Notes under the pieces: generated by a model
Seen by the model: the letters and a program-made list of their open reading frames with translations, nothing else
What the model was told of the DNA's origin: nothing
Database searches by the model: none
Made by a program: the position numbers and the translations under genes
From: Halorarum halophilum
GTDB taxonomy: Archaea; Halobacteriota; Halobacteria; Halobacteriales; Haloferacaceae
Direction of reading: 5' to 3'
Assembly (NCBI RefSeq): GCF_013401515.1
Contig: NZ_CP058529.1
Coordinates: 2,232,001-2,296,000 of the forward strand
DNA length: 64,000 nucleotides
Shown here: positions 1,369 through 36,700 of the stretch, in pieces
Numbering within the stretch: position 1 is the first letter of the stretch
Layout of the letters: each line of letters begins with the position of its first letter

Positions 1369-2268
1369 TCAGTCGAGTCGGACCGGATCGGCCGCCGGTC
1401 GGATCGAGACCCGGACCTTGTCGCCGACGGCGAACGCGGGGTCGCCGCTCTCGGGACGGGTTACCAACTTGGCGCCCCACGCCGGGCCGCGGGACGCGAA
1501 CAGCGAGAGCCCGGTGACCCGCTCGCCGTTCGCCAGCACGGCCACGTCGCCCCACGCGACGTCCCGACCCGTCGCAGTGCCGACGCGTTCGCCCAGCAGT
1601 TCGACCGTCGCCGGTCCCGCCCCCTCTGGCGACCCGAACAGCCCGCCGGCGCCGTAGTGGGCCAGCCCGCCGTCCAGGGGTGTACCCGCGTCGGACGCCA
1701 GCGCGGCGTAGCCGTCGCCGGGGTGGGCCGGCGAATCCAGGAGCGCGTAGCTGTCGCCCGTCTCGACGACCGTCCCCGTCCCGTCCCAGTCGAGCGGACG
1801 GACGGGCACGTCCACGTCGATCGGGAGCGACCCGGAGGCGCGGTAGGGGTTCCGGTCGGCGTCGCGGAACTCGAGGTGGACGTGGTCGTCGACCCAGCGG
1901 CCGAAGAACCCGGAGCGGACCATCCGGCCCAGCGAGTCGCCGACTGCGACCCGGTCGCCCGGTTCGACGGTGGGGTCGACGTGGAGGATTCGGGCCACGT
2001 ACTCGCCGACGTCCACGACGACGAGGTGGTCCTCGTCAACGGCGTACGGCCGGTCGGGACAGCGGACCGTCCGCGTGTCCAGCACCTCCCCCGAGACCGG
2101 CGAAATCCCCACGTCGGTGTCGGGGTAGAGGTCGATGGCGTGGCCGTGGTCGTGGGCGGGGTACGGGGAGTTGTACAGCGAGAAGCGGGGGTACCGCTCG
2201 ACCACGTTGGTAGGGAGCACCACCCGCTCGTCCCGTCCGTCCCCCTCGACCCCCGCGTCCCCGGTCAT
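1369..2268 (-). CDS. M23 (lysostaphin-like) peptidase-fold protein
   Basis: A 299-residue soluble protein with no signal peptide. The segment HDHGHAIDLYP (about residues 39-49) and the later DDHVHLEFRD (about 127-136) resemble the H-x(3)-D and H-x-H zinc motifs of M23/LytM peptidases. Between them is the beta-rich 'GxVxxGDxxGRM' pattern (VEPGDRVAVGDSLGRM) typical of that fold. Haloarchaea lack peptidoglycan, so a cell-wall hydrolase role is unlikely and the substrate is unknown. The C-terminal 130 residues form a separate beta-rich region ending near KVRVSIRPAADPVRLD. The next gene is divergent, 52 bases away. Fold assignment is by motif only. Confidence 0.7.
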   Translation of the reverse strand: MTGDAGVEGDGRDERVVLPTNVVERYPRFSLYNSPYPAHDHGHAIDLYPDTDVGISPVSGEVLDTRTVRCPDRPYAVDEDHLVVVDVGEYVARILHVDPTVEPGDRVAVGDSLGRMVRSGFFGRWVDDHVHLEFRDADRNPYRASGSLPIDVDVPVRPLDWDGTGTVVETGDSYALLDSPAHPGDGYAALASDAGTPLDGGLAHYGAGGLFGSPEGAGPATVELLGERVGTATGRDVAWGDVAVLANGERVTGLSLFASRGPAWGAKLVTRPESGDPAFAVGDKVRVSIRPAADPVRLD

Positions 2269-2320
2269 ACCGCGAGTCGGTGGCGGAAGCGCTTAGGCGC
2301 CGCGACTCCGACCGGCGGGC

Positions 2321-3028
2321 GTGTTCCGGGTGTACCGCGGGGCGCTCCTGACGCGGGAACGCGATCGGGAGGCGACGGCGGCGATGCTCGCCGAGACGGC
2401 CGAGGCCGGCGAGCCGTCGCTCAGAGTGTGGGCGCCCGGCCGACAGATCGCCTTCGGGCGACGGGACGCCCGCGAGGACGGGTACGCCGACGCGAAGCGC
2501 GCGGCCGAGGAACGCGGTTTTCCACCGAGCGAGCGGTCGGTTGGCGGCCGGGCGGTCGCCTACGCCGACTTGACGCTGGCGTTCGCACACGCCGTCCCGC
2601 TGGCGGACATGCGCCGGGGGATGGACGACCGGTACGACGCGGCCGTCGACACCGTCGTCGACGCCCTGCGGAGCGTCGGCGCCGACGTGGAACCTGGGGA
2701 GCCGCCGGACTCGTACTGCCCAGGGGCCCACTCCGTCCGCGTCGTCGACGGCGGGAAGGTCGCGGGGATCGCCCAGCGCGTCCGGCAGGGGGCCGCGCTC
2801 GTCTCCGGGTGCGTGACGGTGGCCGAGGAGGGGGCGATCCGGGACGTGCTCGTTCCGGTGTACGACGCGCTCGGCGTCCCCTTCGACCCCGAGTCGGTCG
2901 GCTCCGTGTCGGCCGCTGGCGGTCCCTCCGATCCCGACGCAGTCCGCGACGCGCTGGAGGCCGCCTTCGTCGCCGACCGCGAGGCCGTCCGGCTTGACGC
3001 GGCCGAACTCCCGACCGACGACGGGTGA
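2321..3028 (+). CDS. lipoate/biotin protein ligase family protein
   Basis: A 235-residue protein of the LplA/LipB/BirA catalytic-domain family. Visible family features are RQIAFGRRD near residue 41, SERSVGGRAVAY near 69 (family pattern RRxxGGxAV), and GGKVAGIAQRVRQGAALVSG near residue 150, which matches the conserved lysine-containing strand and the following turn. Such enzymes attach lipoate, octanoate or biotin to a lysine of an acceptor domain through an acyl-adenylate. The start is GTG at 2321, directly after the divergent gene's promoter region; no ATG fits upstream. No lipoyl synthase or 2-oxoacid dehydrogenase gene is in view, so the substrate stays open. Confidence 0.8.
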   Translation: MFRVYRGALLTRERDREATAAMLAETAEAGEPSLRVWAPGRQIAFGRRDAREDGYADAKRAAEERGFPPSERSVGGRAVAYADLTLAFAHAVPLADMRRGMDDRYDAAVDTVVDALRSVGADVEPGEPPDSYCPGAHSVRVVDGGKVAGIAQRVRQGAALVSGCVTVAEEGAIRDVLVPVYDALGVPFDPESVGSVSAAGGPSDPDAVRDALEAAFVADREAVRLDAAELPTDDG

Positions 3029-3097
3029 GCGCGATGCCGGGTACCGACCGCGGTACGAGCGGTACCCCGGCCCGCGACGTTCGATCAGGCACACCAC

Positions 3098-3134
3098 GGG
3101 TGGGACTGAAAGGGGCCGCGGGGGCTTTCGAGCC
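3098..3134 (+). repeat. dispersed repeat, GGGACTGAAAGGGGCC type, copy A
   Basis: The sequence GTGGGACTGAAAGGGG is followed by a GGGGGCTTTCGAG module. Near-identical copies occur at 16268-16300 (+), 50120-50170 (-) and 63962-64000 (+), all outside genes. This copy lies between the lipoate-ligase-like gene and dihydroorotase. Just upstream (about 3040-3066) three closely spaced GGTAC words also form an imperfect inverted repeat. Confidence 0.75.
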
Positions 3135-3215
3135 ATATCTCTCGGTCGCAGCGGCACCATTCGTACTCGTAACCGACCGCGGCACTTACGGCCCGCCGCC
3201 GCCCACACAGGCCAG

Positions 3216-4565
3216 ATGCTGTTCACGCAGGCCACGCTCGCCGACGGCCGGGTCCGGGACGTCCGCGTCGCCGACGGGGAGATCGCCGACGTCGCGGACG
3301 CGGGAGCACTCGACCCCGAGGACGGTGAGGCGGTCGTCGACGCAGCCGACGAGTACCTCCTCCCGGGCGCCATCGACGCCCACGTCCACTTCCGGGAGCC
3401 GGGGTTCCCGCACAAGGAGGACTGGACGACCGGGTCGCGCTCGGCCGCGGCCGGCGGCGTGACGACCGTCGTCGACCAGCCGAACACCGACCCGACGACG
3501 ACGACGGGTGCGGCGTTCGACGCGAAGGCCGACCTCGCCGCGAAGTCGCTCGTCGACTACGGCCTGAACGGCGGCGTCACGGCCGACTGGGACCCCGAGT
3601 CGCTGTTCGACCGGCCGCTGTTCGCGCTCGGCGAGGTGTTCCTCGCCGACTCCACCGGCGACATGGGCATCGAGGCCGACCTGTTCGCCGACGCGGTCGA
3701 GCGGGCGGCCGACCACGGCGTGACCGTCACGGTGCACGCGGAGGACGCGGACCTGTTCGACGAGAGCGTGCTCCCCGGGAGCACGGAACACGCGAGCGGG
3801 GAGGGAACAGATCCGCGAGCGAGCGCGACGGAGCGAGACGATGCCGACGCGTGGAGCGCCTTCCGGACTCCGGAAGCCGAGGCCGCCGCGGTCGAGCGAG
3901 CCCTGGAGGTCGGGGCCGACTCGGGCGCCGACATCCACATCGCGCACACCTCCACCCCGGAGGGCGTCGACGCCGCCAGCGACGCTGGCGCGACCTGCGA
4001 GGTGACCCCGCACCACCTGTTCCTCTCGCGCGAGGACCTCCCCGACCTCGGAACGCTCGGCCGGATGAACCCGCCGCTCCGCGACGAGGAACGACGCGAG
4101 GCCCTGATGGAGCGCGTCCGGGATGGCACGGTCGACATCGTCGCCACCGACCACGCGCCCCACACTCGGGAGGAGAAAGACGCAGGCATCTGGGATGCCC
4201 CATCGGGCGTCCCGGGCGTCGAGACGATGCTGCCGCTCCTGCTGAACGAGGTCCGCGAGGGTCGGCTGGGACTCGAACGCGTGCGCGACCTCACCGCGGC
4301 GAATCCCGCCGGGATCTTCGCTCTCCCGCGGAAGGGCCGAATCGAGGTCGGTCGGGACGCCGACCTCGTGCTCGTCGACCTCGACGACGTCCGGGAGATC
4401 CGCGGCGACGACCTCCACTCGAAGTGCGGCTGGACGCCGTTCGAGGGGTTCGAGGGCGTCTTCCCGTCGCTGACGCTCGTTCGGGGGAACGTGGTGTACG
4501 ACGGTCGCGACGACGGCGACAGCGAGTCGTTCGGCGACGCGGTCGGCCGGAACGTCCGCGACTGA
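3216..4565 (+). CDS. pyrC: dihydroorotase
   Basis: A 449-residue amidohydrolase of pyrimidine synthesis, which closes N-carbamoyl-aspartate to dihydroorotate. The metal motif H-x-H sits at residues 56-58 in DAHVHFREPGFPHKEDW. Further sites are HAED (near 173), HIAHTST (near 243), TPHHL (near 266) and DHAPH (312-316), the order of class I dihydroorotase/allantoinase enzymes. The adjacent KEDW and the CEVTPHH pattern favour dihydroorotase. ATG 3216 is chosen because the protein then starts with the short beta domain MLFTQATLADGRV. Residues about 183-210 look like an insertion made of repeat-type DNA that includes a perfect hairpin at 3768-3784 (see findings). No other pyrimidine gene is adjacent. 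Confidence 0.93.
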   Translation: MLFTQATLADGRVRDVRVADGEIADVADAGALDPEDGEAVVDAADEYLLPGAIDAHVHFREPGFPHKEDWTTGSRSAAAGGVTTVVDQPNTDPTTTTGAAFDAKADLAAKSLVDYGLNGGVTADWDPESLFDRPLFALGEVFLADSTGDMGIEADLFADAVERAADHGVTVTVHAEDADLFDESVLPGSTEHASGEGTDPRASATERDDADAWSAFRTPEAEAAAVERALEVGADSGADIHIAHTSTPEGVDAASDAGATCEVTPHHLFLSREDLPDLGTLGRMNPPLRDEERREALMERVRDGTVDIVATDHAPHTREEKDAGIWDAPSGVPGVETMLPLLLNEVREGRLGLERVRDLTAANPAGIFALPRKGRIEVGRDADLVLVDLDDVREIRGDDLHSKCGWTPFEGFEGVFPSLTLVRGNVVYDGRDDGDSESFGDAVGRNVRD

Positions 4566-25133: not shown

Positions 25134-25206
25134 GGGCGGCTAGTTCAGCGGACAGAACGTTTGGTTCCGGACCAAAAGGTCGGGGGTTCAAATCCCTCGC
25201 CGCCCG
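25134..25206 (+). tRNA. tRNA-Arg (anticodon CCG)
   Basis: A 73-base tRNA with acceptor stem GGGCGGC/GCCGCCC and discriminator G. The D arm is GTTCAGCGGACAGAAC. The anticodon stem TTTGG/CCAAA has loop TTCCGGA, giving anticodon CCG at 25167-25169, which reads CGG. The T arm is GGGGGTTCAAATCCCTC. No intron and no encoded CCA. The downstream DNA repeats parts of the T arm and 3' end in direct and inverted form. Confidence 0.95.
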
Positions 25207-28669: not shown

Positions 28670-29224
28670 TCACACGATCCTCGCGAAGTACTTCGGGAGC
28701 CGTTTCCGCAGGACGGCGTACGGGATCGCGACCGCGATCACGCCCACGGCGAGCCACCGCGGCGGGCCCGTCAGCAGGAGCGCGACCGGCGCCGCGAACA
28801 GGACCGTGAGCGCGAGGTCCTCGGGCGCACCGTCGTACCGGACGACGTACCGCGCGGCGAGCCACCGGCCGCGGGCGTGGTCGTACACCGCGTTCGGGTT
28901 GGTCCGCTCCCAGGGCCGGAGTTCCTCGCCGGCGCCGAGCACGTCGCTCGCACTGTGGACCGCCGCGGCGACAACGGCGAGTGCCGCGCCGACGGAGAGC
29001 GCGGACGGGGCGAGGAGCGCAGCGACGCCCGCGAGGACTGCGACCGGCCAGAGGAGCACCGGGAAGTGGAGCGTTCGCCGGTGCTGGCCGACCAGCAGGT
29101 CGAGGTCCGGCGCCGTGCCGCCGAGGACCGCGCCGACGACCGCGGCGGTCGAGAACTCGGGAGCGACGAGGGCGACCGGGAGCGCGAGCGCGAGGCTGAC
29201 CGCGACGTGCGTGGGCGCCATCAT
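28670..29224 (-). CDS. membrane-bound metal-dependent hydrolase-like (YdjM/DUF457 superfamily)
   Basis: A 184-residue membrane protein. The N-terminus MMAPTHVAVSLALALPVALV has a His before helix 1. It is followed by GGTAPDLDLLVGQHRRTLHF, which matches the G-x-x-x-PD-x-D and H-R-x2-H pattern of the YdjM/DUF457 family. A further conserved-looking stretch is SASDVLGAGEELRPWERTNPNAV. About four or five helices. The first ATG overlaps the methyltransferase stop by four bases (ATGA), so it is the last gene of that unit. The enzymatic role is unproven across the family. Confidence 0.75.
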   Translation of the reverse strand: MMAPTHVAVSLALALPVALVAPEFSTAAVVGAVLGGTAPDLDLLVGQHRRTLHFPVLLWPVAVLAGVAALLAPSALSVGAALAVVAAAVHSASDVLGAGEELRPWERTNPNAVYDHARGRWLAARYVVRYDGAPEDLALTVLFAAPVALLLTGPPRWLAVGVIAVAIPYAVLRKRLPKYFARIV

Positions 29225-30066
29225 GGGGCGCGGTAGAGGAGGTCGTACCCGTGGGCGACGTAGCTCAACTCGCCCGCCGCGAGCTGCTCCCGACGCGTCT
29301 CGACCCACCCCTCCGCGTCGACATCGGCGTCCGCGAGCGCGTCCGCGACGAACCCGAGAATGCACTCCAGGAAGTACGCCTCGTCCGCCGGATACGACCC
29401 ATCGTGCGGGCGGACGATCCAGTCGGAGGCGCCGACTGCCAGGAGGTCCCCGTCGGCGCGTCGGAGCAAGTCGAGCAGGTGCCTGCCCGCCCGGCTGTCG
29501 CGACCCGGCCGATCGTCGATGGAACGGTGGTACGCACGCTCGACGGCGTCGTCGTCGGGGTGGTCCGGCTGGAAGATAGTGCCGCCGTCGAACGTGATGG
29601 GGAAGTACGCGAGGCCGCCCGGGGCGAGCGCCGCCTCGAAGGCGTCGACAGCCTCCGGGAGCGACACGAGGTCCACGAACGCCTGCGCGACGACGAGGTC
29701 GGCGTCCGCTGTCCGGGCCGCCTCGAGCGCGTCCCCCCGCTCGAAGGCGACCTCCAGGTCGGCGACACGAAAGCCCGACTCGGTCGGGTCGGGGTCGTAG
29801 CCCGCCCGTTCGAGCTCCGCCGCGCGGGCCTCGCGGGCGTGCTCGACGAGCTCCGCCGACCGCTCCACGCCGCGATAGCGCCCGGCGTCGACGCCCCAAT
29901 CCAGCAGACGCGGGACGGTGACGCCGGTTCCGGCGCCCGCGTCGAACACCGACGGGGCCGGCGGCAGCGCCGACCGCAGTCGCTCGCGGACGCGCCGGTC
30001 GAACGCCCGCTCGTCGACGGTGCGCTTCGCGTCGAGGTACCTGACCCGGGCGTGCTCGCCCGCCAT
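29221..30066 (-). CDS. class I SAM-dependent methyltransferase
   Basis: A 281-residue soluble methyltransferase. Motif I is VFDAGAGTGVTVPRLLDWG (near residues 38-56), with the acidic end of strand 2 in YRGVERSAELVEHAREAR. A later strand is ADLVVAQAFVDLVS (motif IV region), then ALAPGGLAYFPITFDGGTIF (post-motif region). The acceptor is unknown. ATG 30066 begins one base after the stop of the PTPS-like gene, and its end overlaps the next gene, so the three form a tight unit. In context it may methylate the product of the neighbouring sugar/pterin genes; that is inference. Confidence 0.85.
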   Translation of the reverse strand: MAGEHARVRYLDAKRTVDERAFDRRVRERLRSALPPAPSVFDAGAGTGVTVPRLLDWGVDAGRYRGVERSAELVEHAREARAAELERAGYDPDPTESGFRVADLEVAFERGDALEAARTADADLVVAQAFVDLVSLPEAVDAFEAALAPGGLAYFPITFDGGTIFQPDHPDDDAVERAYHRSIDDRPGRDSRAGRHLLDLLRRADGDLLAVGASDWIVRPHDGSYPADEAYFLECILGFVADALADADVDAEGWVETRREQLAAGELSYVAHGYDLLYRAP

Positions 30067-30067
30067 C

Positions 30068-30442
30068 TCAGAGCCGACGCTCGTGGCTGGCCCACGCGAC
30101 GTCGTCCTCCCACATCCGCGTCGTGAGCCGCTCGGGCGCGGGGGCGTCGAGGCGACTCGCAACCCGGTCGCCGAAGACACGGGCGAACCGCTCGACGCTC
30201 GGGTTCCCCTCGAACTCCGGGAGGTCGTTCAACAGCGCGTCGCGGTAGCGCGATTCGAGGTCGTCGAGCACCGCGTCGACGGCGTCGATGTCGACCAGGT
30301 AGCCGTACTCGTCGAGTTCCGGGCCGGCGAAGCGCACCTCGGCCTCGTAGTGGTGACTGTGGACCGCTCCCTCCGGTCCCGGGTCCGGCACCGTCAGGAA
30401 GTGCTGGGCGACGAAGTCGCGGGAGACGGAGAGTTCGTACAC
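30068..30442 (-). CDS. 6-pyruvoyl-tetrahydropterin synthase/QueD-like protein with altered active site
   Basis: A 124-residue T-fold protein of the PTPS/QueD family. Zinc ligands are kept: His in RDFVAQHFL (residue 14) and HSH in GAVHSHHYEAEV (28 and 30). The substrate-anchoring Glu is in GNPSVERFARV. The catalytic Cys, normally four residues before the HxH pair, is Glu here (E-G-A-V-H-S-H). The usual Asp-His pair (LDH-x2-LN) is replaced in SRYRDALLNDL. A Glu in place of Cys recalls PTPS-III-type enzymes, which make 6-hydroxymethyl-dihydropterin. So this is probably not queuosine/archaeosine QueD. It is one base from the methyltransferase gene. Confidence 0.85.
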   Translation of the reverse strand: MYELSVSRDFVAQHFLTVPDPGPEGAVHSHHYEAEVRFAGPELDEYGYLVDIDAVDAVLDDLESRYRDALLNDLPEFEGNPSVERFARVFGDRVASRLDAPAPERLTTRMWEDDVAWASHERRL

Positions 30443-30524
30443 ACCCGATTCACGGCCGCGATTGGTATTAACAATCAGGGTGGGGTTGGTGCGGGGACGG
30501 GGGCGTCTCTGCTCGCGTCGACGC

Positions 30525-30899
30525 TTACGAGAGGTGGGCGGTGACGTCAGTCGAGGAGATCATCCCGACGTAGTCGTCGTCGACGACCGGGAGGTGTTTG
30601 ATGCCGTAGGTGGCCATCATCGCGGCGGCCTCCTCCATGTAGAGTTCCGGCGCGGCGGTCTCGACGTCCGTGGTCATCACGTCGGAGACCTGCAGTTCCG
30701 AGGTGTCCCGGCCGTCGGCGACGGCGTCGAGCACGTCGGTACTGCTGATGATCGAGCGCGGCGAGGTGAGGACGATCAGCGCGCTGATCTCCTTCTCGCG
30801 CATCCGCTGGGCTGCCTCCATTACCGAAGCGTCCTTCGAGATCGTCTCCAGGGGAGTGGACATCACGTCCTCGACGGTCGTTCTGTTGTTGGTGCTCAT
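30525..30899 (-). CDS. CBS-domain protein
   Basis: A 124-residue protein made of two CBS motifs, which together form one adenosyl-ligand-binding Bateman module. Repeat one is VEDVMSTPLETISKDASVME to IISSTDVLDAV. Repeat two is VSDVMTTDVETAAPELYMEE to GMISSTDVTAHL. Stand-alone CBS pairs usually sense AMP, ATP, NAD or SAM and regulate a partner. No partner domain is fused. It lies 82 bases upstream of the PTPS-like gene on the same strand, so it may be co-transcribed with it. Confidence 0.88.
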   Translation of the reverse strand: MSTNNRTTVEDVMSTPLETISKDASVMEAAQRMREKEISALIVLTSPRSIISSTDVLDAVADGRDTSELQVSDVMTTDVETAAPELYMEEAAAMMATYGIKHLPVVDDDYVGMISSTDVTAHLS

Positions 30900-31040
30900 A
30901 CACTCACTAGGGACGCGGAGGGTATGGAGTTTCCCCCGGAAAGCCGGGGAAGCTGGTACGATCGGGCATCCCGACGAGTCGCCTGCCCCGGAACCGAACG
31001 AGGAATCCGAGCACTCGTGGGTAATCCAACTCGGGGCGGC

Positions 31041-32075
31041 TCAGTCGTACGTCAACAGCACCTGGAGCGGCGAGCCGTCGGATTGGTCCGCCAGCAGTTC
31101 GTACGCGGTCGGCGCGTCCGCGAAGGGAACGCGGTGGGTGACGACCTCCTCGACCGGGACCCCCTCGAGGACGTCGAGCGCGCGGTCGAGGCGCCGGTCG
31201 GACGTCCAGCGCCCGCGCAGTTCCGGCGCGATGGTGCTCACCTGGCTCGACTGCAGGTCGATCCGGCTCCGGTGGAACCGCCCGCCGAGGTTCAGGTCGG
31301 TCCGCTTCGTCCCGTACCACGACCCGACGACGACGCGACCGTCGTAGCCGACGGCGTCGATCGCGTCGTCCAGCGCGGCCGGTTCGCCCGAGATCTCGAC
31401 CGCGAGGTCCATCCCCTCATTCTCGTCGGCGGCCCGCCGATCGCCGAGTTCGCCGACCTCGTCGGGGTGCAGCGTCGTGTCGGCGCCCAGGCGCTCGGCG
31501 ACCGCCCGCCGGTCCGCGAGCGGGTCGACGACCGCCAGTTCCGCGAGCGGGAACTCGGCGAGCAACGTCGTCGTGAACAGCCCCACGACGCCGGCGCCGT
31601 GGACGACCGCGCGCTCGCCGACGCGAGGCGCGGCGTCGAGCACGAGCGACGTCGCCGTCTCGGCCGTCGGGAGCAGCGTGGCCGCCTCGGCCGAGAGCGA
31701 CGCCGGGACGGGGACCAGCGCGTCCGGGCTGGCGAGGAAGTGGCTCTCGTGGGGGTTGAACGCGAAGACCGTCCGCCCCTCCCACGCCTCGTCGACGTCG
31801 TCGCCGCGGTCCGTCACCGTCCCGACGGCCGCGTAGCCGTACGCCAGCGGGTACGAGAACTCCTCGGCACCGTCCTCGAACGCCGCGAGCGTCGGCCCGA
31901 CCGACAGCTCCTCGGGCACGTCGCCCCGGTAGACGAGCAGTTCCGTGCCGGCGCTGATCGCCGAGACCCGCGTCTCGACCAGGACCTCCTCCGGACCCGG
32001 CTCCGGGATCGACCGTTCCCTGAGCGACACCTCCCCGGGCGAGTCGAAGAACAGCGTCCGCGCCCGGTCGCCCAT
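31041..32075 (-). CDS. MDR-family (zinc-type) dehydrogenase lacking the catalytic zinc Cys
   Basis: A 344-residue medium-chain dehydrogenase. After an N-terminal GroES-like domain (PGPEEVLVETRVSAISAGTE), the segment VFAFNPHESHFLASPDALVP precedes the Rossmann domain, with AVVHGAGVVGLFTTTLLAE as the NAD(P) loop and VVDPLADRRA after it. In classical zinc enzymes the Cys of 'SGICGTD' binds zinc; here the residues are SAISAGTE, so that ligand is missing. This subtype resembles BchC-like dehydrogenases, which act on side chains of larger molecules. ATG 32075 is chosen over an upstream start. It follows the phosphatidyltransferase gene on the same strand. Confidence 0.85.
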   Translation of the reverse strand: MGDRARTLFFDSPGEVSLRERSIPEPGPEEVLVETRVSAISAGTELLVYRGDVPEELSVGPTLAAFEDGAEEFSYPLAYGYAAVGTVTDRGDDVDEAWEGRTVFAFNPHESHFLASPDALVPVPASLSAEAATLLPTAETATSLVLDAAPRVGERAVVHGAGVVGLFTTTLLAEFPLAELAVVDPLADRRAVAERLGADTTLHPDEVGELGDRRAADENEGMDLAVEISGEPAALDDAIDAVGYDGRVVVGSWYGTKRTDLNLGGRFHRSRIDLQSSQVSTIAPELRGRWTSDRRLDRALDVLEGVPVEEVVTHRVPFADAPTAYELLADQSDGSPLQVLLTYD

Positions 32076-32076
32076 C

Positions 32077-32175
32077 TCAGTCGTCCCCCCCGACGGCACC
32101 TCGGACGGCGAGCCGTCGGTCGTCGTCCGGTCCGACGAGCGTGATCTGGACGGTCATGGCGAGACGTTCGGTCAT
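32077..32175 (-). CDS. possible 32-residue small protein
   Basis: ATG at 32175 opens a short frame reading MTERLAMTVQITLVGPDDD then RRLAVRGAVGGDD, with a stop one base before the dehydrogenase start. It fills the only gap between the phosphatidyltransferase and dehydrogenase genes, and the spacing resembles an operon gene. It could be a beta-hairpin peptide. Nothing else supports it, and it may equally be leader sequence. Confidence 0.25.
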   Translation of the reverse strand: MTERLAMTVQITLVGPDDDRRLAVRGAVGGDD

Positions 32176-32194
32176 GGAGTGGTCACCGCGGTCG

Positions 32195-32980
32195 TTATTG
32201 GGCGTTTCGCCCGTCGAGCCGGCCGGACACGACGAGGTAGTCCCTGAGGAACACGAGAAGCGACGGGAGCAGGGCGACGGCCGCCGCGACCCGGAGGACT
32301 CCCGCCGGGAGCACCGGCGCCAGGGCCACGGTGATGAAGACCATCTGGAACGCGGCGAGCGGGCGGCGCACCCTGCTCTCCGGCAGCGCGAACACGGGGT
32401 GGCCGCGGCGTCGACGCCACGCAACGCCGGCCTTGAACACGTAGCGGGCGGCCGACAGCGAGAGGTACCAGACGGGCAGGCGCCCCCACACGACCGCCAC
32501 CAGCGGCGCGACGACGAACCCCAGCGTGTCGAAGGCGAGGTCGAGTCTCGTGCCCAACTCGGTCGTCCGGCCGAGTTCTCGGGCGACGACGCCGTCGAAC
32601 CAGTCGAGGGCGGCACCGGCGCCGTAACTCGCCGCGGGGACCCACAGCAGCGGCTCGTGGGGCGGGACGACCACGAAGCCGGCGACGACGGCGTACAGTC
32701 CGCCCCGCGTCAGCGTCACGACGTTGGCGACGCCGAGCGACCGGCGGACCCGGTCGCCGGCGCGTTCGACGCGGCCCGCGTCGAGGTGCGTCCAGAGGTA
32801 GCCGAGTTCGAAGCCGACCACCATCCCCGACACCGTCGTCCACCGCAGCGCGGTCCCCATCGTCAGGTACCGCCCGGCCAGGTGCAGTCCGACGAGCAAC
32901 CCGATCGCCCCGACCAGCGCGGCGAGCGCGACCTCGACGCGGCACCGCCTGCCGATCGAGAGGCCGGTCGCTTCGCTCAC
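32195..32980 (-). CDS. CDP-alcohol phosphatidyltransferase family protein
   Basis: A 261-residue membrane enzyme with six or so helices. The family motif D-x2-D-G-x2-A-R-x8-G-x3-D-x3-D is complete in DWFDGVVAREL followed by GTRLDLAFD (near residues 125-150), so the Mg-binding catalytic site should be active. It transfers a phospho-alcohol from a CDP-activated lipid or polar group to an acceptor alcohol, as in archaetidyl-inositol or -glycerol synthesis. The start is GTG at 32980, overlapping the stop of the fused oxidoreductase gene by four bases (GTGA), which implies coupled translation. The acceptor is unknown and may be the product of the linked oxidoreductases and glycosyltransferase. Confidence 0.88.
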   Translation of the reverse strand: MSEATGLSIGRRCRVEVALAALVGAIGLLVGLHLAGRYLTMGTALRWTTVSGMVVGFELGYLWTHLDAGRVERAGDRVRRSLGVANVVTLTRGGLYAVVAGFVVVPPHEPLLWVPAASYGAGAALDWFDGVVARELGRTTELGTRLDLAFDTLGFVVAPLVAVVWGRLPVWYLSLSAARYVFKAGVAWRRRRGHPVFALPESRVRRPLAAFQMVFITVALAPVLPAGVLRVAAAVALLPSLLVFLRDYLVVSGRLDGRNAQ

Positions 32981-34974
32981 GGTTCGTCCCCTTCCTCCGC
33001 CGACGTCCCGAGGGCGTCGAGGCGGGCGAGCAGGTCGGGATCGAGGTCGAGCCCCCCCGCGGCGAGGTTGTCGACCAGGTGGTCCCGGTCGATGCTCGAC
33101 GGGATCGGGACGACGCCGCGCCGGATCGACCACGCCAGCACCGCCTGCGCGGGCGTCACGCCGGCGTCGTCGGCGACCGCCCGGACCGCGTCGTCGTCCA
33201 GCAGGTCGCCCGAGTCGAGGGGGGTGTGCGCGAGCAGCCGGATGCCCCGGTCGTGACAGAACGACCGGAGCGCCTCGCGCGGTTCGCGGGGGTGGTGTTC
33301 GACCTGGACGATCGCCGGCGGGATCCGGGCCGTCCCGACGAGTCGTTCCAGCCTGTCGAGCGGGACGTTGCAGATCCCGATGGCGCGGGTCAGGCCGCGA
33401 TCGACCAACCGCTCCATCGACCGCCACGTCTCCGCCAGGGTCACGTCGCCCTCGCGGACGTCCCCGTCCTCGTCGCGGGGGAACGTCAGCCGCTCCTGCT
33501 CGTCGGCCGGGAGCGACGCGAGGTCCGTCAGCGGACCCTGGTACTCCCACGCGTCGGGCCAGTGGAGCAGGTACGAGTCGAGCGTCCCCACGCCGAGCGC
33601 GGCGAGCGTCGTCCCGCAGGCCTCCGCGACGTGCTCGTGGTTCGTGTTCCACACCTTGCTGGTGAGGTGCAACGCCGAACGGCGCGGCGTCCCCGGCGCG
33701 GCGAGAATCTCCCCGATGCGCTGCTCGTTGCCGTACAGTTCCGCGGAGTCGAGGAGCCGGTAGCCCGCGTCGAGCGCGGCCGCGATGGAGTCCGCCCGCT
33801 CGACGTACTCCCCGTCGCGGTAGCGCGCACAGCCGAACCCGACCCGCGGGAGCCGGATCGCGGCGTCGGGGACCCCCGTCGACGTCGGTCGGAAGTCCGG
33901 CGCGTATCGCGGCTCCGCCTCGGTTCCGGCGTCGTCGATCCGGACGGACGGTTCCCCCTCGGCGACGCGCTCGGCGGGGGCGTTCTCGGTGGCGAGGGTT
34001 TCGATGGCGGCGCACGTCGCGACGACGTGTGCGGCGCGTCGTCCCGTCCGCACCGACGGTCGCCCCCGCTCGATTCCGGCGGCGAGCCGCTCCGGGCCGG
34101 CGAGGAACGACCCCTCCTCGGCGGGGTACCCTGGCGGCATCGACGTGTACTCGTGCCCGGACCGGGCGAACCGGACGAGGTCGCGCCCGTCCGCCATCGC
34201 CCCGCAGTCGGCGAGGTACAGCGAGCCGTCGTCGCCGTGGAGTTCGAGCGAGTTGAACTCGCGGCTCCGGTGGGGCGCGTAGAGACTCGCGGTCAGGCGC
34301 ACCGTCGGCCCGTCCGCGAACGCCAGGGTCGCCTCGACGTGGCTCGGCCGCTCCGGTCGACGCTCCTCCCGTTCGGGCCACGGCGACACGGCGTCGGCGC
34401 TCCGGACGCGCTCCATCGGACCGAACCAGGCGACCAGCAGCGTCAGCGGGTACACCGCGCCGTCGTACAGCGGCCCGACCCGGAGGAACGACGTCGGGTC
34501 GTCGTGCCACTCGGTGACCCGTCCGACGTGGGCGTGCGCGTACGCCAGCCGAACGGGACCGAGGCGGCCGTCGGCGAGCGCCGCGGCGACCCGGCGCTGC
34601 GCGGGGTTCCCCGGTGTCGTCGGTGCACAGCCGAGCGCCAGCGCCCGGTCCTCGGCGAGCGCGACCAGCTCCGCGGCGGCGTCGGCGTCCATCGCCAGCG
34701 GCTTCTGGCTGAACACGTGGCGGTCCGCCTGGAGCGCGGTTCGGGTCACGCCAGCGTGCGCCTCGTGGCTCGTGAGGTTGACGAGCAGGGGGGCGGGTTC
34801 GGCCTCGAGCATCGTCCCGAGGTCCGCGTAGGCCGCCGCGCCGTGTTCGTCGGCGAGCGCGGTCGCGCGGTCGAGGTCGAGGTCGCAGACGGCCGTCAGC
34901 CGGAGGGGGCTGTCCGGCAGTCCGGCGGCGTACTCGCGGGCGACGGCGCCCGCACCCACGAACGCGCAGTCCAT
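32977..34974 (-). CDS. Gfo/Idh/MocA oxidoreductase fused to aldo-keto reductase
   Basis: A 665-residue two-enzyme fusion. Residues 1 to about 340 are Gfo/Idh/MocA-like: MDCAFVGAGAVAREYAAGL is the NAD(P) fold start and VFSQKPLAMD matches the E-K-P motif with Gln for Glu. A C-terminal beta-sheet part contains SREFNSLELHGDDGSLYLAD. After a linker (about 341-385), an aldo-keto reductase barrel covers the rest: RVGFGCARY, the catalytic Asp and Tyr in LLDSAELYGNEQRIGE, Lys in LTSKVWNTNHE and His in YLLHWPDAW, so the tetrad is intact, then SIRRGVVPIPSSIDRDHL. A single frame spans both parts without frameshift. ATG 34974 begins at the Rossmann strand. First gene of the reverse-strand unit. Confidence 0.9.
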   Translation of the reverse strand: MDCAFVGAGAVAREYAAGLPDSPLRLTAVCDLDLDRATALADEHGAAAYADLGTMLEAEPAPLLVNLTSHEAHAGVTRTALQADRHVFSQKPLAMDADAAAELVALAEDRALALGCAPTTPGNPAQRRVAAALADGRLGPVRLAYAHAHVGRVTEWHDDPTSFLRVGPLYDGAVYPLTLLVAWFGPMERVRSADAVSPWPEREERRPERPSHVEATLAFADGPTVRLTASLYAPHRSREFNSLELHGDDGSLYLADCGAMADGRDLVRFARSGHEYTSMPPGYPAEEGSFLAGPERLAAGIERGRPSVRTGRRAAHVVATCAAIETLATENAPAERVAEGEPSVRIDDAGTEAEPRYAPDFRPTSTGVPDAAIRLPRVGFGCARYRDGEYVERADSIAAALDAGYRLLDSAELYGNEQRIGEILAAPGTPRRSALHLTSKVWNTNHEHVAEACGTTLAALGVGTLDSYLLHWPDAWEYQGPLTDLASLPADEQERLTFPRDEDGDVREGDVTLAETWRSMERLVDRGLTRAIGICNVPLDRLERLVGTARIPPAIVQVEHHPREPREALRSFCHDRGIRLLAHTPLDSGDLLDDDAVRAVADDAGVTPAQAVLAWSIRRGVVPIPSSIDRDHLVDNLAAGGLDLDPDLLARLDALGTSAEEGDEP

Positions 34975-35141
34975 ACGTGGAACCCCGGACCGGTCGAGGA
35001 AAGTTGTTGTGCCACTGATGCACACGGTCGGGGGGCGACGGACGGCAGGACCGGGCGGGTCGGCGGACGCGGGACCGGGACCACGCTGACTGGCGGGTGG
35101 AGGGACCACGCAGTTTTGTCGCCGCGCACCCTCCGACCGAT

Positions 35142-36248
35142 ATGGCGCGGGTGGCCGTCGTGCACAACACGCTCGACCTGCGGAGCGGCGCCGACGCGGT
35201 CTGTCTCCACGTCTGCGAGGCGCTCCAGGACGTCCACGACGTCACCCTGTTCACGCTCTCGCATCCGCCGCTGTCGACGCTCAACGGGATGTTCGACACC
35301 GCGGCGGCGGTCCCGGTCCGGACGCCGCCCGGCAGCGAGTTCCTCGGGCCGGCGCTCGAACTCGTCGCCGACCATGCCGGACCGCTGCTGGCCCCGCGGA
35401 GCGTCCTGCTCGACTGCTTTGTCCGCCGGCACGCCCAGGGGGTCGATCTCCTCGTCAGCACCGCCAACGAGTTCGACTTCTCCCGTCCGTCGGTCCAGTA
35501 CGTCCACTACCCGCAGTTCAACGGCCGGGCCGTCGACGACGACGACGCCGGGCGGCTCGACCCCCTGTGGACCCGCCTGGCCGGCCTCGGCGACCGTCGG
35601 CTTCCGGCCGACGCCACGCTCGTCACGAACTCGTCCTGGACGGCCGAGGCGGTCGCCGAGCGCTACGGGCGGGAGCCGACCGTCCTCCACCCGCCCGTCG
35701 ACCCGATAGGGGGCGGACTGGACTGGGCCGAGCGCGAGCACGGCGTCGTCGCGGCCGGCCGGATCGCCCCGGACAAGCGGACGCTCGACGCCGTCCGGAT
35801 CGTCGACGCGGTCCGGGAGCGCGGCCACGACGTCCACCTGCACGTGGTCGGAACGGCCGCGCCGGCGTACCGCTCGTACGTCGACCGGGTCGCGGCGGCG
35901 GCCGACGCCCGCGAGTACGTCTCGCTGGAGACGGACGTTTCCCGAAACCGGCTCGAATCCCTGTTGACCACGCACCGGTACGGGCTCTCCACGAAGCCGG
36001 ACGAGCACTTCGGGATGACCGTCGCCGAGTACGTCGCCGCGGGCACGCTCGCCTTCGCGCCGGACTCGGGCGGCCAGCGCGACGTCCTCGACGGCGCGGA
36101 GGAGCACCTCTTCTCGTCCGTTCCCGACGCCGCGGCGACGGTCTCGCGCGCCATCGAGACGGGACGGGAGCCGTCGCTTCCGCGCGACCGGTTCGGACGC
36201 GACCGGTTCCACCGGCGGATCAGGGCGCTCGTCGCGGACCGGCTGTGA
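35142..36248 (+). CDS. GT4-family glycosyltransferase
   Basis: A 368-residue GT-B glycosyltransferase. The N-terminal half begins RVAVVHNTLDLRSGADAVCL, with a donor/acceptor cleft typical of family 4. The C-terminal half shows VVAAGRIAPDKRTLDAVRIV (the 'GRl..eKg' motif), HLHVVGTAAPAYRSYVDRVA, then LSTKPDEHFGMTVAEYVAAG, the E-x7-E nucleotide-sugar site 'EgFGmtvaEAmA'. It is probably cytoplasmic or membrane-associated; donor and acceptor are unknown. It is divergent from the fused oxidoreductase gene with 167 bases between starts, so a shared control region is likely. I read it as part of the same locus. Confidence 0.88.
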   Translation: MARVAVVHNTLDLRSGADAVCLHVCEALQDVHDVTLFTLSHPPLSTLNGMFDTAAAVPVRTPPGSEFLGPALELVADHAGPLLAPRSVLLDCFVRRHAQGVDLLVSTANEFDFSRPSVQYVHYPQFNGRAVDDDDAGRLDPLWTRLAGLGDRRLPADATLVTNSSWTAEAVAERYGREPTVLHPPVDPIGGGLDWAEREHGVVAAGRIAPDKRTLDAVRIVDAVRERGHDVHLHVVGTAAPAYRSYVDRVAAAADAREYVSLETDVSRNRLESLLTTHRYGLSTKPDEHFGMTVAEYVAAGTLAFAPDSGGQRDVLDGAEEHLFSSVPDAAATVSRAIETGREPSLPRDRFGRDRFHRRIRALVADRL

Positions 36249-36334: not shown

Positions 36335-36700
36335 ATGAGCGCGACACGCGGGAACGGCTTCCTCGAACTCGACACGGTGGGCTCGCTCCACTGGGCGGGT
36401 ATCGTCCTCGCAGCGATCACCGGCGTGTTGCACCTGTTCCTCGGGTTCTCGTTCGTCACCGAGCCGATGGGATGGAGCTTCATCGCCGCCGGCGTTGGCT
36501 TCCTGGCCGGCTGCCTCGGCGTGCTGGCGAACTACCGCCGTCGGCTGCTCTACTTCCTCGGAATCCCGTTCACGGCGGGTCAGATCGTCGTCTGGTACGT
36601 GGTGAACGCCCCCGACCTCTCGGCGCTGGGCATCGTCGACAAGGTGGTCCAGGTCGCGCTCATCGTCGTCCTCGTCGTCCTCTACCTGCGGGAGTCGTAG
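36335..36700 (+). CDS. small conserved membrane protein, unknown function
   Basis: A 121-residue protein with four helices (about 17-37, 45-64, 70-89 and 98-117): HWAGIVLAAITGVLHLFLGF, GWSFIAAGVGFLAGCLGVLA and further segments. The family appears widespread in haloarchaea, usually without assigned function; one His near the end of helix 1 and a single Cys are the only notable residues. ATG 36335 is chosen over GTG at 36326. It follows the glycosyltransferase gene by 86 bases on the same strand and might be read through from it. Confidence 0.75.
   Translation: MSATRGNGFLELDTVGSLHWAGIVLAAITGVLHLFLGFSFVTEPMGWSFIAAGVGFLAGCLGVLANYRRRLLYFLGIPFTAGQIVVWYVVNAPDLSALGIVDKVVQVALIVVLVVLYLRES

Follow-up and report, generated by a model that had tools for sequence, protein, structure and literature searches.

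Which pathway is encoded by a compact run of enzyme genes grouped around a gene of the 6-pyruvoyltetrahydropterin synthase (PTPS) superfamily is the question raised by the stretch of Halorarum halophilum DNA analysed here, 64,000 nucleotides of contig NZ_CP058529.1 (positions 2,232,001 to 2,296,000), hereafter called the window. A sequence-only reading had proposed that the PTPS-like gene and its neighbours form one conserved, undescribed biosynthetic locus common to Halobacteria and Actinobacteria, and this proposal survived every test applied; the genes, families, overlaps, gaps and divergent GT4 glycosyltransferase that it had named were all confirmed at their places. Searches of an open literature library found no described product or cluster. 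On balance we consider it probable, with room left for the alternatives weighed below, that the locus encodes an undescribed pathway which starts at GTP, proceeds via a 2,5-diaminopyrimidinone and ends in a pyrimidine or pteridine that is glycosylated, usually methylated and probably lipid-linked.

Conservation was assessed at 40 other haloarchaeal PTPS-like loci from many families, in which 18 genes of the window were sought by tblastn within about 10 kb. The conserved neighbourhood expected of such a locus was found: the dehydrogenase gene was adjacent to or near the PTPS-like gene in 35 of 40 loci, the methyltransferase gene in 32 and the CDP-alcohol transferase gene in 26. A gene for a small DUF7475 protein was present at 21 loci, the fusion of a Gfo/Idh/MocA oxidoreductase with an aldo/keto reductase (Gfo/Idh-AKR) at 11-12, and the divergent GT4 gene (GT-A) at 10-11; by clustering, the DUF7475 gene and the fusion were counted at 24 and 16 haloarchaeal loci, respectively. 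Control genes flanking the cluster were found at 1 (methionine-pathway enzyme), 1 (MATE), 3 (kinase), 1 (FAD oxidase) and 7 (HAD) loci, and those for the enolase-like protein, GDPD and thermosome at none. Many haloarchaeal families share the neighbourhood but not the flanking genes, so that the association is more than chance. Of 243 Halobacteriales genomes sampled, 136 had relatives of the PTPS-like gene, in 52 of 77 genera, and 133 were kept after removal of three with weak matches to other PTPS genes. The PTPS-like and dehydrogenase genes occurred together in 129 genomes; 4 had the PTPS-like gene only, none the dehydrogenase gene only, and 110 had neither.

The genes are also closely spaced. 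The median gap was -4 from the PTPS-like gene to the methyltransferase gene (15 loci), -4 from the glycosyltransferase gene to the methyltransferase gene (19 loci) and about 0 from the PTPS-like gene to the glycosyltransferase gene, and the Gfo/Idh-AKR and CDP-alcohol transferase genes overlapped by 4 bases in 5 of 5 measured loci. Such spacing across loci shows translational coupling. Two haloarchaeal layouts were observed. In the first, found in the window and at loci L033, L035 and L039 of our set, a divergent GT-A gene lies beside a row of Gfo/Idh-AKR, CDP-alcohol transferase, dehydrogenase, PTPS and methyltransferase genes. In the second, exemplified by Natronorubrum bangense, a different GT4 gene (GT-B) is placed between the PTPS-like and methyltransferase genes; GT-B was counted at 27 haloarchaeal and 20 actinobacterial loci.

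Other Halobacteriota carry the cluster too, and a plasmid match in Arthrobacter led to actinobacterial loci, in which dehydrogenase, PTPS and GT4 genes form a tight operon. One actinobacterial scan yielded Arthrobacter relatives only, and a wider genome sampling was added. Streptomyces-like genomes also have the CDP-alcohol transferase and GTP cyclohydrolase II (GCH II), and one or more of them a creatininase, a methyltransferase, an LPG_synthase_TM flippase-like protein or a RibD_C reductase, with some further actinobacterial neighbours assigned by eye from clustering. The methyltransferase was seen at Streptomyces-like locus L158 and the CDP-alcohol transferase at actinobacterial locus L161. 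The best named match of the RibD_C reductase was TIGR01508, the archaeal 2,5-diamino-6-ribosylaminopyrimidinone phosphate reductase, at 128 bits, under the 186-bit cut-off. Five actinobacterial loci had a DUF7475 homologue nearby (E 1e-7 to 1e-12). FolB-like (dihydroneopterin aldolase-like) genes, identified by eye from clustering, lie beside the actinobacterial cluster at L166-L168, L170, L172 and L173.

The clue to the starting compound came from relatives of the window. In Haloarcula pelagica, a GTP cyclohydrolase III (GCH III) gene lies between the CDP-alcohol transferase and dehydrogenase genes and overlaps the latter. GCH III was present at 18 of 43 haloarchaeal loci, with a median gap of -1 to the dehydrogenase gene. 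In a GCH III tree, 10 cluster-linked copies (two of these rows being one gene reached twice) and 1 unlinked copy formed a clade, with support of 100/99, apart from the housekeeping copies, and two GCH III genes were carried by 21 of 133 genomes with the PTPS-like gene versus 5 of 110 without it (Fisher p 0.006). At Streptomyces-like actinobacterial loci, GCH II occupies the same cluster place as haloarchaeal GCH III. The archaeal locus L199 has the order methyltransferase, GCH II, dehydrogenase, PTPS, GT4, with a 1-base overlap between the GCH II and dehydrogenase genes and with creatininase and MptA genes nearby. Locus L202 comes from an organism of the same phylum outside the haloarchaea; there, one reading frame (1990-3723, plus strand, 577 aa) encodes GCH II joined to the dehydrogenase, and the fusion gene is followed by PTPS and overlapping GT4 genes. 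GCH II and GCH III are unrelated families, and both open the same ring of GTP. Because either of them is found in the same cluster place, this linkage argues that the operon needs their product, which is the strongest functional inference of the analysis. The likely entry enzyme would be a GTP cyclohydrolase, which the sequence-only reading had overlooked. Its glycosylated pterin or lipid headgroup stays plausible, and the pteridine or pyrimidine part of that idea is now better supported because GCH II or GCH III sit in the operons.

The physical linkage of GCH II or GCH III to the dehydrogenase and PTPS genes was found in relatives and not in the window's own genome, where a single GCH III gene (L076; G000:C1:1121030-1121749) is unlinked to the cluster. 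This copy falls in the same subclade as the copies adjoining the dehydrogenase gene in other genera. It adjoins an OsmC-like gene, and in other genera OsmC, GCH III, dehydrogenase and PTPS genes stand together; the OsmC-GCH III pairing suggests that the cluster was split in the window's lineage.

The PTPS-like protein itself matched PF01242 with 88.6 bits, and its AlphaFold2 model (pLDDT 81) is a T-fold that matches E. coli QueD and SCO6650 of Streptomyces coelicolor. It has the zinc histidines of the superfamily, H14, H28 and H30, which are conserved in 43, 40 and 43 of 43 haloarchaeal sequences, respectively, and the ring-anchoring Glu (E112) is kept in 65 of 65 sequences. Membership in the T-fold family was thus correctly recognised, but the catalytic residues of real PTPS and QueD enzymes are absent. 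The catalytic Cys position (E24) is Glu in 43/43 haloarchaeal and Ala in 22/22 actinobacterial sequences, and the catalytic His position before LN (D68) is Asp in 40/43 and Tyr in 22/22. The window protein reads PEGxxHSH, not CxxxHGH with its catalytic Cys, and scored 43 bits with the QueD model TIGR03367 (cut-off 89.25). Compared with QueD and other PTPS-I proteins, it shares the T-fold, the zinc histidines and the ring-anchoring Glu, whereas the catalytic Cys, Asp and His are replaced, and a separate QueD with CxxxHGH is encoded elsewhere in the same genome, beside QueC and QueE. Judged from these residues, the protein is not QueD, and the database name 6-carboxytetrahydropterin synthase appears wrong. 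The PTPS-III motif ExxHGH is absent as well, the Glu being four, not three, residues ahead of the first His and the motif reading HSH.

The closest known relative is SCO6650 (PDB 3d7j), a PTPS homologue of unknown function, which was the best PDB sequence match (E 2.6e-6) and among the best fold matches (TM 0.78, 30% identity). Both proteins belong to one subfamily by sequence and fold, with a GPx motif and no catalytic Cys or His, and Streptomyces-like loci share the context of dehydrogenase-PTPS-GT4 and GCH II. They differ in that the haloarchaeal protein keeps three zinc histidines, one of which is Ala in the Streptomyces/Arthrobacter types (11/11; HGA for HGH), and in a Glu that replaces an Ala of that type. 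The structure paper on SCO6650 reportedly found no zinc and no PTPS activity. A relation to PTPS-IV of COG0720 is also probable: the actinobacterial orthologues in the same operon carry FGPAQ, FGPAS or FGPAT at the signature position, and FGPAQ is the published PTPS-IV signature (PMC5445326). The window protein differs in having PGPEG there, in its GCH II/III, dehydrogenase and GT4 neighbours, and in that F420 is made without need for it.

As for the partner enzymes, BchC (bacteriochlorophyllide dehydrogenase, TIGR01202) is the closest named family of the dehydrogenase, but at 75 bits the match is far under the cut-off of 291.25, and the haloarchaeal cluster has no bacteriochlorophyll genes. 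SxxSxGTE, YGY, PH, SWYG, FHR and SSQV are conserved across domains. SAISAGTE and YGY stand at the positions of the catalytic-zinc ligands and no Cys is invariant. The Cys and His ligands of the catalytic zinc of classical zinc-dependent alcohol dehydrogenases are thus missing. The CDP-alcohol transferase (58.6 bits to PF01066, cut-off 22) has the complete motif D-x2-D-G-x2-A-R-x8-G-x3-D-x3-D, present as DWFDGVVARELGRTTELGTRLDLAFD in the translation; a PDB relative was sought for it and none was found. Together with the LPG_synthase_TM flippase-like protein and DUF7475, it is a predicted membrane-linked partner of the cluster.

Features of the locus are listed in Table 1. In the window, the Gfo/Idh-AKR and CDP-alcohol transferase genes overlap by 4 bases (32977-32980), as do the methyltransferase and YdjM-like genes (29221-29224), the PTPS-like and methyltransferase genes are 1 base apart, and 167 bp separate the start codons of the divergent GT4 and fusion genes. 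All genes named beforehand are present; a CBS-domain gene within the run had gone unnamed, and the DUF7475 gene had been left just outside. The latter belongs to the locus, as its recurrence at haloarchaeal and actinobacterial loci shows. The CBS gene was ruled out as a cluster member and is an insertion: a homologue was near only 2 of 40 loci, near relatives lack it there, and the closest relative (L033, genome G017) had no CBS match between the dehydrogenase and PTPS genes. The gene described as membrane hydrolase-like does overlap the methyltransferase gene; its YdjM-like product matched PF04307 at E 1e-4 and 22 bits (cut-off 29), and a homologue was near only 3 of 40 loci. YdjM-like genes near other clusters had no BLASTP similarity to it, and it would be a doubtful accessory member at best.

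Table 1. Annotated features of the window at and around the PTPS-like gene cluster.
Feature	Position	Strand	Family	Remark
tRNA gene	25134-25206			sole Rfam match of the whole window
YdjM-like membrane protein	28670..29224	-	PF04307 (under cut-off)	doubtful accessory member
Class I S-adenosylmethionine-dependent methyltransferase	29221..30066	-	PF13649	core member
PTPS/T-fold protein	30068..30442	-	PF01242	probably related to PTPS-IV subfamily
CBS-domain pair	30525..30899	-		insertion between dehydrogenase and PTPS-like genes
BchC-like medium-chain dehydrogenase	31041..32075	-		core member
CDP-alcohol phosphatidyltransferase	32195..32980	-	PF01066	GTG start
Gfo/Idh/MocA oxidoreductase-aldo/keto reductase fusion	32977..34974	-	PF01408, PF00248	accessory, subset of haloarchaea
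GT4 glycosyltransferase, GT-A type	35142..36248	+	PF00534	divergent
DUF7475 small membrane protein	36335..36700	+	PF24287	follows GT4

Two further observations were made at related loci. On plasmid pNG700 of Haloarcula marismortui (L077, record 104289-104650), the PTPS-like gene is split into two frames and is unannotated; the neighbouring cluster genes are annotated, and the same broken gene occurs in two records of the strain. At loci L036, L040, L042, L051, L052, L055, L063, L064 and L077, the Gfo/Idh-AKR fusion has as its neighbour a sulfatase/alkaline-phosphatase-like protein of about 294 aa, whose copies are 70-80% identical.

As we infer it, down to substrate, step order, pteridine formation, lipid attachment and product, the pathway would begin with the opening of GTP to a formamido- or diaminopyrimidinone ribotide by a GTP cyclohydrolase; in the window's genome this would fall to the sole GCH III, which is unlinked, and in many relatives to an operon-linked GCH III or GCH II. 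The next steps could follow archaeal riboflavin synthesis, with the 2-amino group kept, and would be carried out by a creatininase-family deformylase and, in some actinobacteria, by an ArfC/RibD-type reductase. The PTPS-like T-fold protein would hold the guanine-like ring by its invariant Glu; together with the BchC-like dehydrogenase, it may remodel the side chain or close a pteridine ring. GT4 would then glycosylate the product and the methyltransferase cap it. The CDP-alcohol transferase probably links a membrane lipid to the product or to the sugar alcohol of the product, a step which the Gfo/Idh-AKR protein may aid in some haloarchaea, so that in many organisms the product would be attached to, or moved across, the membrane.

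Several points weigh against this pathway. The cluster of the window's genome has no GTP cyclohydrolase, deformylase or reductase, and the one GCH III of that genome is presumably shared with riboflavin and F420 synthesis. GCH III is found at part of the haloarchaeal loci, not at all of them, and the fusion of GCH II to the dehydrogenase comes from a single contig of an incomplete genome. The glycosyl acceptor, the methyl acceptor and the lipid attachment are not readable from sequence. FolE2/MptA, the entry to true pterins, is encoded 4-7 kb away from the cluster at two archaeal loci, L199 and L200, and FolE2 has been reported near PTPS-IV genes (PMC5445326).

The last two points also speak for the main rival, in which the product is a glycosylated true pterin, like the haloarchaeal halopterins, and its precursor is not a GCH II/III pyrimidine but dihydroneopterin phosphate supplied by FolE2/MptA. 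In known pathways, dihydroneopterin triphosphate is a substrate of PTPS proteins (PMC5041015), the window's genome has MptA, and the FolB-like genes by several actinobacterial loci would fit as well. However, a haloarchaeal query detected no FolE2 homologue within about 10 kb of loci L033-L177, GCH II or GCH III is directly coupled or fused to the cluster, and the PTPS-like protein lacks the catalytic Cys and His that dihydroneopterin triphosphate chemistry needs, and we regard a true pterin as unlikely. Literature on halopterins, charged pterins reportedly found in haloarchaea, did not turn up in our search.

It could also be supposed that the cluster makes a phospholipid headgroup, the PTPS-like protein having lost any link to pterins. 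The complete motif of the CDP-alcohol transferase and the GT4, DUF7475, sulfatase-like, PAP2 and flippase-like neighbours would suit such a pathway, but the invariance of the ring-anchoring Glu, the linked or fused GTP cyclohydrolases, and the many loci that keep the dehydrogenase and PTPS genes and lack the CDP-alcohol transferase make it quite improbable. A part in riboflavin or F420 biosynthesis is very improbable. GCH III feeds both cofactors, and a published mention of unpublished work places PTPS-IV in F420 synthesis (PMC5041015). But all 205 good Halobacteriales genomes had CofG and 115 of the 205 the PTPS-like gene, so that F420 can be made without the latter; neither pathway has a use for the glycosyltransferase, the methyltransferase or the CDP-alcohol transferase, and in some genomes the cluster has a GCH III paralogue of its own. 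Relatives of ArfA (GCH III), ArfB (creatininase family) and ArfC (reductase) of the archaeal riboflavin/F420 branch are indeed found at cluster loci, in one genome or another, but the cluster continues with dehydrogenase, PTPS, GT4, methyltransferase and CDP-alcohol transferase instead of lumazine and riboflavin enzymes. That the gene encodes a normal QueD (6-carboxytetrahydropterin synthase) serving archaeosine or queuosine synthesis amid unrelated neighbours, as RefSeq names of its orthologues imply, is scarcely conceivable, given the missing CxxxHGH, the QueD score under the cut-off, the separate QueD in the genome, and a neighbourhood conserved without queC or queE.

For the GTP-derived pathway that we favour, a bolder and quite tentative possibility is that its product is a glyco-phospholipid of a new class with a pyrimidine or pteridine part, which both Archaea and Actinobacteria would make from this one operon with a PTPS-fold enzyme catalysing novel chemistry. 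Anchored in the membrane, such a lipid might serve as a redox- or light-active cofactor or as a signal. With the cluster, a PTPS subfamily of unsettled function gains a metabolic context and thereby a substrate class open to testing, although the crystal structure of one bacterial member, SCO6650, dates from 2008. The cluster also corrects the name 6-carboxytetrahydropterin synthase on many proteins. Tractable laboratory hosts exist in Haloferax volcanii and Streptomyces coelicolor. The finding points to an unrecognised metabolite common to more than half of the sampled haloarchaea and to many actinobacteria.

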